The notes under the pieces were generated by a model that did not search any database, had not been told where the DNA came from, and saw only the letters and a program-made list of their open reading frames with translations. Below, piece by piece: positions 11,473 to 38,677 of a DNA stretch of 43,824 bases (its first letter is position 1; every line of letters starts with the position of its first letter). The position numbers and the translations under genes were made by a program. The DNA comes from Alphaproteobacteria bacterium. Lineage in GTDB: Bacteria > Pseudomonadota > Alphaproteobacteria > ATCC43930 > CGMCC-115725. The DNA lies in NCBI GenBank assembly GCA_030041335.1, contig JASHOB010000117.1:1-43824 (forward strand). The letters run 5' to 3'.

Positions 11473-12771
11473 CTACCTTAGGTTATCGTACTCTTGGTCG
11501 AATTTTTTGTTGATCCCGAGCTTTGCTTCGAGGGGAACGATCGACTTTGCGTAACTGGGATCCGCGACCGGAAAGCAACCTTCGACAAACTTAAATTTGC
11601 CGTCGTGAATCACCACGGTCCGGGTGATATGGTTGCCCTGATGCTCGGTAGCAGCCTTGCCACCCCAATACCAGGGGCCGCAGAGAATGTCGGAATAATA
11701 AGGCTTCATATTCTGGATCGCTGCGGTAACGGCGTTGCGATTGATGTCTTTCGGGTTCTTGATCGTCAACATGGCGTTGACGGCGATGCGGGCGGCGATA
11801 TAGCCGGCCTGTGAGAAACTGTCCTTCAGAACCTTTGGACCGTACGCATCCATGACGTCGTTCCAGTTCTGATTGTCCTTACCCTTAGCGTCCAGAGGAC
11901 CAAGCTCGGTGTTGACCCACAGCCGATCGTTCCAATACTTCGTGTCGATCGCGCCGGGGAACCGGGCGGTGTAGTAAGAGGTCGGACCGGTCCATTTCAT
12001 TTTGGCGGCGCCGTCTTGTTGCTCGGCGGCGTTCAGCAGCTGCGCCGCCTGATCATCGACGAAAAGCGCCTGAACGCCATCGTCGCCGGTGGCCAGCACT
12101 TGCAACGCCAGCGAGTTGAAATCTGGCGACGTAGGGTCGGCATATATACTGTCGACCTTGACGCCATACTTTTTCCCCCACGCCTCGACGCCGCCGCAGG
12201 TATAGTCCGAACCCGGGAACTTGAAGATCAGACAGACCATGCTTTTGGCACCGAGCTTACGCCGCGCATAGTCGTTGGCGCCGAGGGCGCTGGCGCGGGG
12301 GCCTGCATTGATTTCGGCGATGTTCTTCGATTGGTAGCATTGCGGCGGGATGCCAAGGCCGATCTCGAGAACGTTCTGCTTGATGTAATAATCGGCGTTG
12401 GCGATGCATTCGATGAAGCTGGTGCTGCCGATCAAGGTGTAGACGCCAATGTCGCCGACCAGTTTCTTTGCCGCCTGCGCAGCCACATCGAGTTTGGATT
12501 GATCGTCTTCATCGTGATAGACGATCGGGCGGCCGTGAATCCCGCCATTGGCGTTGACGCAATCGAAATAGGCTTTAGCGGCGAGATCGGCCTCCTCGAA
12601 ACTGCCGATGCCGCTTGCGGAAGTGACCGCACCAATCGGAATCGACTCGCCAGCAGCCGGTTTGCCTGTGTTCATGCCGCAGTCAAGCTTCGCAGCAAAC
12701 GCCGGCACGCCCGACCCGAGCAGCCAGCCCGCGGCAAGCGTGAGCGCTAACGCACTGACAATGCGCTTCAT
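11473..12771 (-). CDS. HAAT-type periplasmic substrate-binding protein, copy 2
   Basis: A 432-residue binding protein. The signal peptide is MKRIVSALALTLAAGWLLG..PAFAA, then LDCGMNTGKPAAGESIPIGAV. It has the same blocks as copy 1 (FDCVNANGGIHGRPIVYHDE, GSTSFIECIANADYYIKQ, FPGAIDTKYWNDRLWVNTEL) and the same cysteine pattern, pointing to tandem duplication. The segment around 12048-12062 (LFVDDQAAQLLNAAEQQ versus IYGTDDIGAQIFAAAEQQ in copy 1) differs more and may touch ligand specificity. ATG 12771 follows GGGAGGGAG. The longer in-frame extension to 12948 lacks a signal peptide and is rejected. It is separated from copy 1 by a hairpin terminator and has its own promoter-like element. Confidence 0.93.
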   Translation of the reverse strand: MKRIVSALALTLAAGWLLGSGVPAFAAKLDCGMNTGKPAAGESIPIGAVTSASGIGSFEEADLAAKAYFDCVNANGGIHGRPIVYHDEDDQSKLDVAAQAAKKLVGDIGVYTLIGSTSFIECIANADYYIKQNVLEIGLGIPPQCYQSKNIAEINAGPRASALGANDYARRKLGAKSMVCLIFKFPGSDYTCGGVEAWGKKYGVKVDSIYADPTSPDFNSLALQVLATGDDGVQALFVDDQAAQLLNAAEQQDGAAKMKWTGPTSYYTARFPGAIDTKYWNDRLWVNTELGPLDAKGKDNQNWNDVMDAYGPKVLKDSFSQAGYIAARIAVNAMLTIKNPKDINRNAVTAAIQNMKPYYSDILCGPWYWGGKAATEHQGNHITRTVVIHDGKFKFVEGCFPVADPSYAKSIVPLEAKLGINKKFDQEYDNLR

Positions 12772-12847
12772 TGACTCCCTCCCTGAGGCGCTCGCCTCGT
12801 CATTGCCGCGCGATCCAAGTGCCGGGCGGCCAAATTGATTTGCCGCG

Positions 12848-12877
12848 AGCCTGCGTGAAACGGGGCGCCGCGTCAAG
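12848..12877 (-). promoter_or_regulatory. Putative promoter of binding-protein copy 2
   Basis: The minus strand reads CTTGACGCGGCGCCC then GCAGGCT about 17 bp after TTGACG. It aligns with the element at 11349-11378, sharing TTGACGCG, CGCCC and GCAGGCT. It lies about 105 bp upstream of ATG 12771. The -35 is good, the -10 poor. Confidence 0.45.
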
Positions 12878-12962
12878 TTCAGAGGGTCGCCGTTAAGAGA
12901 AAGACCCCGTGGGCTTGCGCCCGGACTTGCGCGTCTGAATCTCGACAATCGGTCGCCTGAAT

Positions 12963-14237
12963 TTAGAGGCCAAACAGCCCCACCTCGAGACCGAAATGCG
13001 CCCGCGCCAGCGGAGCCGCGAAGTTGAGATACTGCGCCGAGATGTGGCTGCGATACATGGCGACGTCGCGATAATAGCGCTCGATTTTCTGGCCCTTCTT
13101 CGCCGCCGCCGAGCTTGACAAGGCATAGACGACGTCCATCGCCTCGCCGGACAGCCGCCCGGCATGCTGGATCATTGCCCAGAGGCCGATATTGTCTTCC
13201 AGTGTGATTGGGGTGCCATCCTTGGCCCAGCGCCGACAGTATTCCATGTACTTGTGTCCGGCGGACATCAGGATCCCCTCAGCGGCGTCGGTGAGCGCCA
13301 TCGCCTGGCCGAAACCGCGTTGGAAGTCGACATGCTGATAGCGCGGAATCACCGGCGGAAATAGCGTATTGCGCGTCTTGATGATTTGCTCGAATTCGTC
13401 GAGCGCCGCCTGTGCCGCGCCGAGGGTCGGCGTCACCAGCGACATATGATAGGGACCCATGACCCGGCCGAGATACATGGGATTGCCATGAAGCCGTGTC
13501 CCTGGCGTGCCGTCCATCATTGTCTCCGGAAGCGCCCACATGCCGTTGGCCGGCGTGACATAATGCGCGGGCACAAACTGGTGGTCGACACGGACGCTGT
13601 TTGAGCCCGAGGCGCGCATGCCGAGCGTCTTGTCGCCGCCCCAATCGTCGAGAATGGTCACCTGCCGCTTCGGCACGCAGACATTGACGGCATCCGGAGG
13701 ATTGCTGCCATTGAGCGCCCGGGCGCCGCCGATAAAGTGCGACGAATAGGGAATGCCCGAGCAATAATCCCATACCCCGTCGACGATGTAGCCGCCTTCG
13801 ACCGGGGTTGCGGTGCCGAGCGGCGGCGGTCGATGCGGCGCGGCAAAGAAGCCATCGGGACCGAAGAGCTCGCGCTGCCCCGTTTCGCTCCAGTGTGAAG
13901 CGACGATGAAGGGATGTGAGGCGCAGAGCGCCAAGCACCAACCGGCGCTGGGATGACCACGCGACACTTCCAACATGGTCTTGTAGAAGGTCGGCACATC
14001 AAACTCGTAGCCGCCGAAGAGGCGCGGCTGCAGGCAGCGGTAGAATCCGGCATCGAGGAAGGCTTGGTGCATTGCGGCGGAGTAGTGGCCGCGCTCATCC
14101 GCTTCTTCCTGCTCGGCGCGCAGCCGTGGCCGCAGTGCCACGGCACGTGCGATCATTTCCTCGGGCGTAAGATCGGGCTCGGGAACTGGATAGACGGGTT
14201 GCCTGCTGGTTTCGCGTTTCTGCAATGTTCTCGCCAT
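12963..14237 (-). CDS. Acyl-CoA-dehydrogenase-fold flavin monooxygenase (group D, HsaA/HpaB-type oxygenase)
   Basis: A 424-residue protein. The N-terminal helical domain has LFGGYEFDVPTFYKTMLEVSRGHPSAGW. A mid beta domain contains VDGVWDYCSGIPYSSHFIGG and MRASGSNSVRVDHQFVP, the layout of flavin-dependent two-component oxygenases rather than true acyl-CoA dehydrogenases. The C-terminal helical domain is PF08028-like. Such enzymes hydroxylate aromatic or steroid substrates with reduced flavin from a separate reductase; none is seen nearby. ATG 14237 has GGGAGA upstream. The open frame continues to 15230 only as a shadow of the opposite-strand epimerase gene. It is 191 bp upstream of binding-protein copy 2, same strand, so its substrate may be what that transporter imports. 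Confidence 0.83.
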   Translation of the reverse strand: MARTLQKRETSRQPVYPVPEPDLTPEEMIARAVALRPRLRAEQEEADERGHYSAAMHQAFLDAGFYRCLQPRLFGGYEFDVPTFYKTMLEVSRGHPSAGWCLALCASHPFIVASHWSETGQRELFGPDGFFAAPHRPPPLGTATPVEGGYIVDGVWDYCSGIPYSSHFIGGARALNGSNPPDAVNVCVPKRQVTILDDWGGDKTLGMRASGSNSVRVDHQFVPAHYVTPANGMWALPETMMDGTPGTRLHGNPMYLGRVMGPYHMSLVTPTLGAAQAALDEFEQIIKTRNTLFPPVIPRYQHVDFQRGFGQAMALTDAAEGILMSAGHKYMEYCRRWAKDGTPITLEDNIGLWAMIQHAGRLSGEAMDVVYALSSSAAAKKGQKIERYYRDVAMYRSHISAQYLNFAAPLARAHFGLEVGLFGL

Positions 14238-36449: not shown

Positions 36450-37215
36450 CTCACTTCTCCCTTGATCGGTGAACTGGTTCTGATAGCCCCTGTTCCAGCG
36501 CGCTTGCTCGTACCACTGGCTACTTGAGGCAGAAAAAAGGTTGGCAGTCGCTCTCAATGAAATTGGACCGCCCTAAGATTATGTGGACATCAACAGATGT
36601 CTTTGGCGCGCCAGCAAAAATCGCCGCCAATCCCGTCACTCTCGGACTTCCCTCCAAGAACTCCGGCTAAAATTTTAGATGTCCGTGGTCATGGCACATA
36701 TCGGGGAAAACCCGCAAACCCACCAATCCTTTATGTTACCAGCCGATGTTGTTCGATCCGCAATTCGACCTTCTCCCGTATCTCAGCCTTGTCGCCTCAG
36801 GCTTTGATGTCCGTCCTCGGGAGTAAGGTTGCAGGCCAGTGATTGCGGAAGCGATCGTGCGGACGGCCCTCGCCCTTAGCCGTGCTCAACGCGCGCCATT
36901 GCGGCTCCGACTCGCGTCCAATATCGATTCGATATCACAGGCAGCGTCGTCGATCGCCAAGACGATGCCCGTCGCCATTGTCCGCGTCGCCGCCAAACCA
37001 AAGGATTGTCGGCGTCGTTGCCCCTTCCGTACCATTCATCGCAACTGGACGTTGGAACGCGTTCACGTGTGCCCTGAGGTCCGAGACGGGCAGCGACCAT
37101 AGAACCCACGGCTCCTTGCGGACCGGAGCCACCCCGATTAGGCACATGGACCCACTAACTTTGGACCGATACCATGATAATCCCGGGCCGTCGGACCCCA
37201 GCTGCGGAATTACCG
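36450..37215. other. Gene-poor stretch upstream of the sulfatase
   Basis: No gene is supported over about 765 bp. Short frames on both strands have no family signature and no good ribosome site. Base composition is more mixed than in neighbouring genes (for example AAAATTTTAGAT near 36670), which suggests decayed or non-coding DNA. The sulfatase promoter must lie at the left end, but no clear -35/-10 pair was seen. Confidence 0.5.
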
Positions 37216-37854
37216 ATGCGCAATGACATTCAAGACTTTGCCCGGCTCACCAATCTCGCCGACGGCATCTTCGCTGTCGCTATGACTTTTTTGGCGTTCA
37301 CTATTCAGGTGCCGACACCGGGAGCGGGGCCGGACGGTAGCTTGGCAGCGCGTCTCGGCGCCATGCTGCCGCAACTCGGCACTCTGGCCTTTAGCTTTAT
37401 CATTGCCGCGCGGGTATGGACGCTGCACTTCAAAATGCATCGAGTCATCCTGCGCGGCGACGACTTGCTCATCGTGCTGAACATGGTGTTGCTATTCGGG
37501 ATCGTCCTGATTCCCTTCAGCGCAGCCGTTCTGAGCACCTATCCGCTGTCATCACTAAGCGTCTCAATCTACGCCGCGAATGCCCTGCTGATGTTGTTGA
37601 TGGATGGGGCGATCTGGTGCTACGTCCGCGCTCGTCCTCATTTCCTGGCGGAAGGTACGCCATCTGATTATTCGGCGCGGATGATGCGATATAGCATGGA
37701 GACTGCGGCTGTATTTGGCGGCTCGATCGGGGTGGCCTGGTTCGCACCGCGCGTGGCGCTCTACGTATGGGCCCTCATCCCGGTGCTTATCCTGTTGCAA
37801 GCCCGCGACACCGCCCGGGCAAGTAGACACAACGGCGCGCCCACTCGACCTTAA
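37216..37854 (+). CDS. TMEM175-like (DUF1211) membrane channel family protein
   Basis: About 212 residues with six hydrophobic segments. TM1 is FARLTNLADGIFAVAMTFLAFTI, corresponding to the R-xxx-FSDGxFA-xxxT motif of TMEM175 potassium channels with Phe-Ser replaced by Leu-Ala. The second half lacks a clear repeat of that motif, as in many prokaryotic members, which assemble as tetramers. It lies in the inner membrane. ATG 37216 is chosen because family proteins start just before TM1; 37174 in frame is possible. No operon partner. Confidence 0.82.
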   Translation: MRNDIQDFARLTNLADGIFAVAMTFLAFTIQVPTPGAGPDGSLAARLGAMLPQLGTLAFSFIIAARVWTLHFKMHRVILRGDDLLIVLNMVLLFGIVLIPFSAAVLSTYPLSSLSVSIYAANALLMLLMDGAIWCYVRARPHFLAEGTPSDYSARMMRYSMETAAVFGGSIGVAWFAPRVALYVWALIPVLILLQARDTARASRHNGAPTRP

Positions 37855-37927: not shown

Positions 37928-38044
37928 TTACGGTGCAAGTATCTGGTTCGGCACTTGCTGGAGCACCCGCCGCAAGAGCGCCGGGAGCACAGGCTCCTTC
38001 AAGGCTTTGGTCAGCAAGTTCCAAATGTTCTGCACTGTGGTCAT
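37928..38044 (-). CDS. Possible 38-residue amphipathic small protein
   Basis: ATG 38044 is preceded by GGGGAG eight bases upstream and the frame ends with TAA at 37928. The product begins MTTVQNIWNLLTKALKEP and continues with LPALLRRVLQQVPNQ. It has alternating hydrophobic and basic residues and would form an amphipathic helix. A CRP-like palindrome is centred 78 bp upstream of the start. No homologue is known to me, and such a short frame may be chance. Confidence 0.35.
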   Translation of the reverse strand: MTTVQNIWNLLTKALKEPVLPALLRRVLQQVPNQILAP

Positions 38045-38110
38045 GACGTGCTCTCCCCTTCGATCCCGCGATTTGCGATTGCCGCGATTGTGGGCGCACG
38101 CCCCGTATTC

Positions 38111-38134
38111 TGTGTGTGAAGTAGCTCACACACA
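38111..38134. promoter_or_regulatory. CRP-family operator-like palindrome, site 1
   Basis: TGTGTGTGA (38111-38119), spacer AGTAGC, TCACACACA (38126-38134): a perfect 9-bp inverted repeat. Its centre is exactly the CRP consensus TGTGA-N6-TCACA at 38115-38130. It is well placed to control the minus-strand small frame, and is far upstream of the plus-strand gene at 38438. Confidence 0.7.
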
Positions 38135-38341
38135 CCGAAGCTTTTTGGCGCTTCGAAGTTTCGCGGACTGCGCGGCTCTTTCGCGACGGCACCAATGAGG
38201 CACAACGGTACAAGCCCAAATGAATCTGCCGTCGATCGGTACGATGCCGCGCTCCGTTCGACTTGGCGCCACCCTACTTAGCCGCACCGGCTCCGCGCCA
38301 CGAAATCATGGCGCCGCCGAACATCAAAAAATCTTCGCGCA

Positions 38342-38357
38342 TGTGAACCACCTCACA
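38342..38357. promoter_or_regulatory. CRP-family operator-like palindrome, site 2
   Basis: TGTGA (38342-38346), spacer ACCACC, TCACA (38353-38357), a second exact match to TGTGA-N6-TCACA. Its centre is 227 bp from site 1 and about 88 bp upstream of ATG 38438, a usual distance for an activator site. Confidence 0.7.
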
Positions 38358-38437: not shown

Positions 38438-38677
38438 ATGAAGACCACGCTGAATGCACTGGCAATCGCACTCACTGTGACCGCCCGCTTCGTCTCCGCG
38501 CACGCTGAGGCTGCGGAACTCTTCAGTGTGAGCGTTGGCTCTCAGTCCATTGTCAACAACCGCGGACCCGACATTCCGACCAGCGGACTCTACTCGGCTG
38601 CAAGACGCCTACAAACGTCCAGCGTCCGCGGCGGAGCAGAGGCGAGGTGCGCGTATGTCTCGAGTCATCGACCGTGA
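38438..38677 (+). CDS. Small secreted hypothetical protein, possibly frameshifted
   Basis: About 79 residues: signal peptide MKTTLNALAIALTVTARFVSAHAEA, then AELFSVSVGSQSIVNNRGPD. After ~50 residues the composition becomes Arg-rich and less natural, while the frame two bases over reads RLQDAYKRPASAAEQRRGAR, so a frameshift near 38590 is possible. A CRP-like site is 80 bp upstream. No family is recognised. Start 38438 or GTG 38429. Confidence 0.45.
   Translation: MKTTLNALAIALTVTARFVSAHAEAAELFSVSVGSQSIVNNRGPDIPTSGLYSAARRLQTSSVRGGAEARCAYVSSHRP

Follow-up and report, generated by a model that had tools for sequence, protein, structure and literature searches.

The locus examined here raises the question of why two perfect palindromes of the E. 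coli CRP type should stand in one intergenic region of an alphaproteobacterial genome, and what they might control. The window, i.e., the whole stretch of DNA that was analyzed (43,824 nucleotides), is the entire contig C142 of a genome of 5.17 Mb in 262 contigs. The features in and around the region are as follows.

37174-37854, plus strand: TMEM175-family gene (PF06736, E=2.8e-18), oriented convergently to the window's copy of a module described below
37928-38044, minus strand: 38-codon frame starting at the start codon of that module, read here as a putative G1 glutamic peptidase remnant
38115-38130: CRP-type site 1, TGTGAAGTAGCTCACA, with an exact TGTGA-N6-TCACA core and perfect arms that extend to 38111-38134
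38342-38357: CRP-type site 2, TGTGAACCACCTCACA, with an exact TGTGA-N6-TCACA core
38438-38677, plus strand: 79-codon frame with a signal-peptide-like start, a possible target of site 2

Both palindromes had been described in the initial annotation as exact CRP-consensus matches, and both were found; they are the sole matches in the window, even when one mismatch is tolerated. The 9-bp perfect arms ascribed to site 1 are also present in the sequence (38111-38119 and 38126-38134, separated by a 6-base loop). Under a first-order Markov model of the window, 0.018 perfect sites are expected in it and 2.2 in the genome, compared with 2 and 14 observed. The two sites thus exceed chance, as had been proposed; the figure then given, 0.04 per window, is the value for equal base frequencies and is replaced by that of the Markov model. 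With one mismatch tolerated, at least two matches were also reached in 11 of 100 shuffles of the window, and the weight of the observation therefore rests on the perfection of both sites. Their placement had been misread: rather than flanking the 38-codon frame and a secreted small protein, the sites are themselves enclosed by the two frames, which point away from each other (38044-37928 on the minus strand and 38438-38677 on the plus strand).

A motif scan of the whole genome, the check that the initial annotation had proposed, returned 14 perfect TGTGA-N6-TCACA sites and 1 match to the reversed pattern; at one mismatch or fewer, the respective counts are 55 and 20. Abundance of the motif inside genes had been named as the outcome that would speak against regulatory sites. 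By a crude codon-usage gene caller, 11 of the 14 lie outside genes, 2 at a called start codon and 1 well inside a gene. This last site, TGTGATCATGATCACA, is located inside a response-regulator gene (L005:1363-1734), probably by chance. Both palindromes of the window are very probably CRP-type operators.

To identify a candidate reader, the genome was searched with PF13545, which gave six matches, three of them above the cut-off. Two of these three proteins carry the helix TTETVSR, presumably an FNR/FixK-like motif. The third, encoded at C51:11429-12136 on the minus strand, is CRP-like, with the helix SRETTNK and the pocket FGE...PRSA; its best solved relatives fall within the CRP family, led by the mycobacterial CRP 3d0s (E=1e-31), which we take to be Rv3676. 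A CRP-family regulator with an E. coli-type recognition helix, which it had been suggested to look for, is thus encoded in the genome, its helix being of similar style, and this protein is the likely reader of both sites. The earlier inference of either a specific regulator or an acquired control region is supported in its first part by this matching gene. Acquisition is not needed to account for the sites, though a module confined to a single genome would be compatible with it.

A perfect site lies 14 bp past the 3' end of the regulator gene (hereafter crp), which forms a divergent pair with a class III cyclase gene (12331-13737, plus strand). The genome contains 40 matches to PF00211, 39 of them above the cut-off; four of the 14 perfect sites are no more than 2 kb away from a class III cyclase domain, where 0.48 would be expected, and at C100:1506 there is overlap between a perfect site and the start called for a cyclase gene.

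Alphaproteobacterial CRP/FNR regulators had been noted often to use other half-sites, but the present one is not foreign to the class: the sequence protected by CgrA of Rhodospirillum centenum, upstream of its own operon, is exactly TGTGA-N6-TCACA (PMC4681086). The palindrome is the same here and sites again lie beside the regulator gene, a likeness at the level of the sites. Clr of Sinorhizobium meliloti is likewise an alphaproteobacterial cyclic-nucleotide receptor of the Crp-Fnr superfamily, with the consensus HGTYHCNNNNGRWACA and the core GTNNCNNNNGNNAC (PMC10127613); unlike the palindrome of CgrA, this core is, by inspection, matched by none of the 14 perfect sites found here. In a review table, the sites of Clr and CgrA are flagged as similar (PMC5449483). 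The mycobacterial CRP consensus is described as similar to that of E. coli (PMC4117774). The mycobacterial protein has a recognition helix nearly identical to that of the C51 regulator, but it belongs to a distant organism and acts on other target genes.

The precedent of CgrA, together with the cyclase gene divergent from crp, also suggests that the C51 regulator could respond to cGMP, like CgrA, rather than to cAMP, which we regard as possible but doubtful. To our knowledge, PF00211 does not separate the two kinds of cyclase. The pocket of the C51 protein, with TT at the position where E. coli CRP has TS, fits cAMP as well. In our preferred reading, the genome's own CRP-type regulator would bind both palindromes, with cAMP as its most likely ligand.

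The pairing of site and regulator was then followed across the order, in 43 genomes including our own, with a match to the C51 regulator at E<=1e-40 taken as a homologue. This yielded 23 matches in 21 of the 43 genomes and loci for 20 matches, some of which end early at contig ends. Perfect sites cluster at these loci: 11 of the 20 contain one, and the 12 sites found over 67,690 bases compare with 0.03 expected at our genome's rate; the reversed-pattern control gave 0. When our own genome is left out, 10 of 19 loci and 11 sites are retained. Two of the nine other loci have a one-mismatch site and seven have neither kind. In 10 comparison loci (nine peptidase loci from other genomes of the order and L052; 31,167 bases) there were no perfect sites; one-mismatch sites occur in two of these nine peptidase loci. 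At 10 of the 11 site-bearing crp loci, a site is no more than 500 bp away from the crp match: 5' of it in four loci and 3' of it in seven, with sites on both sides at one locus. At the eleventh, the site is located about 1.3 kb upstream. In loci L053, L055, L056 and L069-L072, perfect sites often stand 3' of the crp gene instead of in front of it.

Sites per Mb are higher in the 11 genomes with a crp match than in the 18 without one (one-sided Mann-Whitney P = 0.00014 over the 29 genomes of the order with both counts, a statistic that ignores relatedness; P = 0.0003 without our own genome). Three genomes, G018, G023 and G012, have 9, 5 and 4 sites but no crp match at E<=1e-40. Lack of conservation in sister strains, the other outcome that the initial annotation had named as speaking against its reading, is what was seen for this locus: it and its module were found in our own genome only (1 of 43). 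What recurs in relatives is the perfect site beside their crp homologues. Through these neighbouring sites, the comparison links a CRP site of the E. coli type with one particular regulator gene.

The regulator-site pair is of an already known type; the unusual part is what surrounds site 1. New in this analysis is that site 1 lies within a module of about 110 bp, made up of a CRP site, a -10-like hexamer, a leader, a ribosome site and a start codon, which is present three times in the genome.

38033-38145, minus strand: window copy of the promoter-leader module, containing site 1
38087-38092, minus strand: -10-like hexamer CACAAT of the window copy, one base beyond class II register, with a putative promoter function
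38053-38058, minus strand: Shine-Dalgarno-like GGGGAG before the ATG at 38044
C257:37209-37315: module copy A, 84% identical to the window copy
C257:38664-38775: module copy B, 81% identical to the window copy

A genome search with the module recovered these three copies, the next best match having E=0.33. Copies A and B are arranged in tandem, 1.46 kb apart. The other 42 genomes of the order, of which the three from the same genus are 61-80% complete, yielded neither the module nor the 1.2-kb region of the window, and the plasmid and phage record collections contained no copy of the module. Common to all three copies are the CRP site, the -10-like hexamer, the leader, GGGAGAGCACG (GGGGAGAGCACG in the window) and the start codon; divergence begins within a few codons of the latter. 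The CRP site is the better preserved part, with 15 of 16 columns invariant compared with 65 of 97 in the remaining module (Fisher P = 0.02), and copy B has the 16-bp core of the site 1 palindrome but not its outer arms. A leader hairpin, CCGC-AAAT-GCGG, was considered and rejected, with 195 of 200 shuffles folding at least as well for the window copy, 176 of 200 for copy A and 24 of 200 for copy B. In the accessible parts of the literature on mobile promoters, promoter duplication and regulatory rewiring, we found no published duplicated CRP promoter module.

The architecture of the module resembles that of class II promoters. In E. coli class II promoters, 29.5 bp separate the site centre from the -10 hexamer and about 41.5 bp separate it from the transcription start. 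The hexamers of copies A and B (CAAAAT and CAGAAT) are exactly in this register, which would put the site centre at -41.5; the TGTGA-N6-TCACA core is likewise shared with E. coli. The differences from E. coli are that the -10-like hexamers are weak, including CACAAT of the window copy, which is also one base out, and that the promoters here are predicted; a general sigma-70 scan reported no promoter at the window copy. In our preferred reading, site 1 would be the activator site of a class II-like promoter that reads leftwards, with its start codon within about 110 bp. The scan gave no terminator-like site on the minus strand between the module and the TMEM175-like gene, so a transcript from the window copy, taken as an orphan promoter in a tentative reading given below, could run antisense into that gene.

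For site 2 the picture is less complete. Its centre lies 88.5 bp before the ATG at 38438, and no convincing -10-like hexamer was found for it at the five distances tested on the plus strand. The 79-codon frame has no Pfam match, and a search of the order's other 42 genomes brought up a single weak match to it (E=0.0065). Site 2 alone could have arisen by chance. Between sites 1 and 2, the stretch 38258-38307 resembles C257:24420-24465 over 50 bp at 84% identity with a 24-bp identical core. The latter, the only strong second copy in the genome, is located just 3' of a gene that is presumably glutathione-transferase-like, and the 3,046 bases around it contain no CRP-type site at one mismatch or fewer and one at two.

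The three copies of the module are followed by different sequences. Behind copy A lies a G1 glutamic peptidase gene (PF01828, E=2.5e-25) and then a class III cyclase gene on the same strand. The contig of copies A and B carries two class III cyclase genes (L083, C257:28724-36018), one directly after the peptidase gene. Copy B is followed by a frame of 12 codons and by a TauE gene. With a molybdopterin oxidoreductase gene (PF00174) on the opposite side of this copy (L014:558-2996), the TauE gene suggests a sulfite-related pair. Behind the window copy is the 38-codon frame, in which two stretches match peptidase gene A.

37945-38000, minus strand: homology to peptidase gene A over 56 bp, 44 of them identical, corresponding to peptidase residues 58-75
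38009-38023, plus strand: exact 15-bp match to the sense strand of peptidase gene A, in inverted orientation with respect to the frame

Frame residues 16-33 share 10 of 18 positions with residues 58-75 of peptidase A, a similarity equalled by 0 of 2000 shuffles; matches to the Caballeronia and Paraburkholderia peptidases are weak, with 30 and 162 of 2000 shuffles as good. The inverted 15-bp piece lies between the start codon and the homologous stretch and was equalled in 1 of 3000 shuffles. Mismatches to peptidase A number 4, 5 and 3 at codon positions 1, 2 and 3. Unlike the gene of copy A, the frame has no Pfam match, Peptidase_A4 (PF01828) included. It looks like a deleted, partly inverted peptidase remnant at most. 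A selected small protein is unlikely, given the lack of a Pfam match, the spread of mismatches across codon positions and the inverted part. Of the 43 genomes of the order, 8 have the PF01828 family. When named genomes were scanned with peptidase A, a search whose reach is limited to close relatives, two loci came up, in Caballeronia (64% identical) and Paraburkholderia (62%), and no module was found upstream of either of these Burkholderiales genes.

Duplication followed by loss of the coding part is the simplest account of the module. In the joint reading that we consider somewhat better than evenly supported, both palindromes are operators of the genome's own regulator, site 1 serves a class II-like promoter, and duplication copied the promoter-leader unit either along with the upstream end of a G1 glutamic peptidase gene or out of it. 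The window copy would subsequently have lost the greater part of the peptidase coding sequence by deletion and had a small piece inverted, leaving the 38-codon frame behind a perfect operator.

In a different account of its origin, the module would be a mobile or repeatedly captured promoter cassette that spread before different genes, and not what survives of duplicated peptidase genes at one end. The shared stretch is indeed a nearly complete expression unit whose end lies no more than a few codons from the start codon, copy B precedes the 12-codon frame and the TauE gene instead of a peptidase, and the tblastn matches listed (unfiltered) include no convincing peptidase remnant between copies B and A. 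Against such spread, there are only three copies, two of them in tandem, peptidase sequence does stand behind the window copy, and the plasmid and phage collections lack a match. Nor is there comparable sharing among the genome's other sites or the 28 sites of two relatives (16 of G021 and 12 of G014), where only single 20-bp matches were seen. We rate a cassette as rather unlikely. Still more tentative is the bolder idea that a nearly complete CRP-activated unit has been copied before different genes, which would have entered the regulon by promoter capture, the window copy being an orphan promoter. If true, promoter capture would be a route by which genes join a cyclic-nucleotide regulon.

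Chance palindromes are very improbable. One of the 14 sites does lie well inside a gene and the reversed control still gives 20 matches at one mismatch, but the perfect sites far exceed expectation in both the window and the genome, and the site has been kept in a three-copy module. Least credible is an RNA hairpin or terminator in place of a protein-binding site at site 1: its arms and loop would permit one and a terminator-like match on the plus strand ends at 38107, adjoining the site, but copy B dispenses with the outer arms, the palindrome itself is not among the four terminator-like matches of the scan (1.5 expected), and the identical 16-bp core turns up elsewhere, both at unrelated places and next to crp genes.

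Under the joint reading of regulator-bound operators and a duplicated, later truncated peptidase end, the window would offer a natural case of an operator that is still perfect while the gene behind it has been largely lost or exchanged. Such a case bears on how genes may enter and leave a global regulon.
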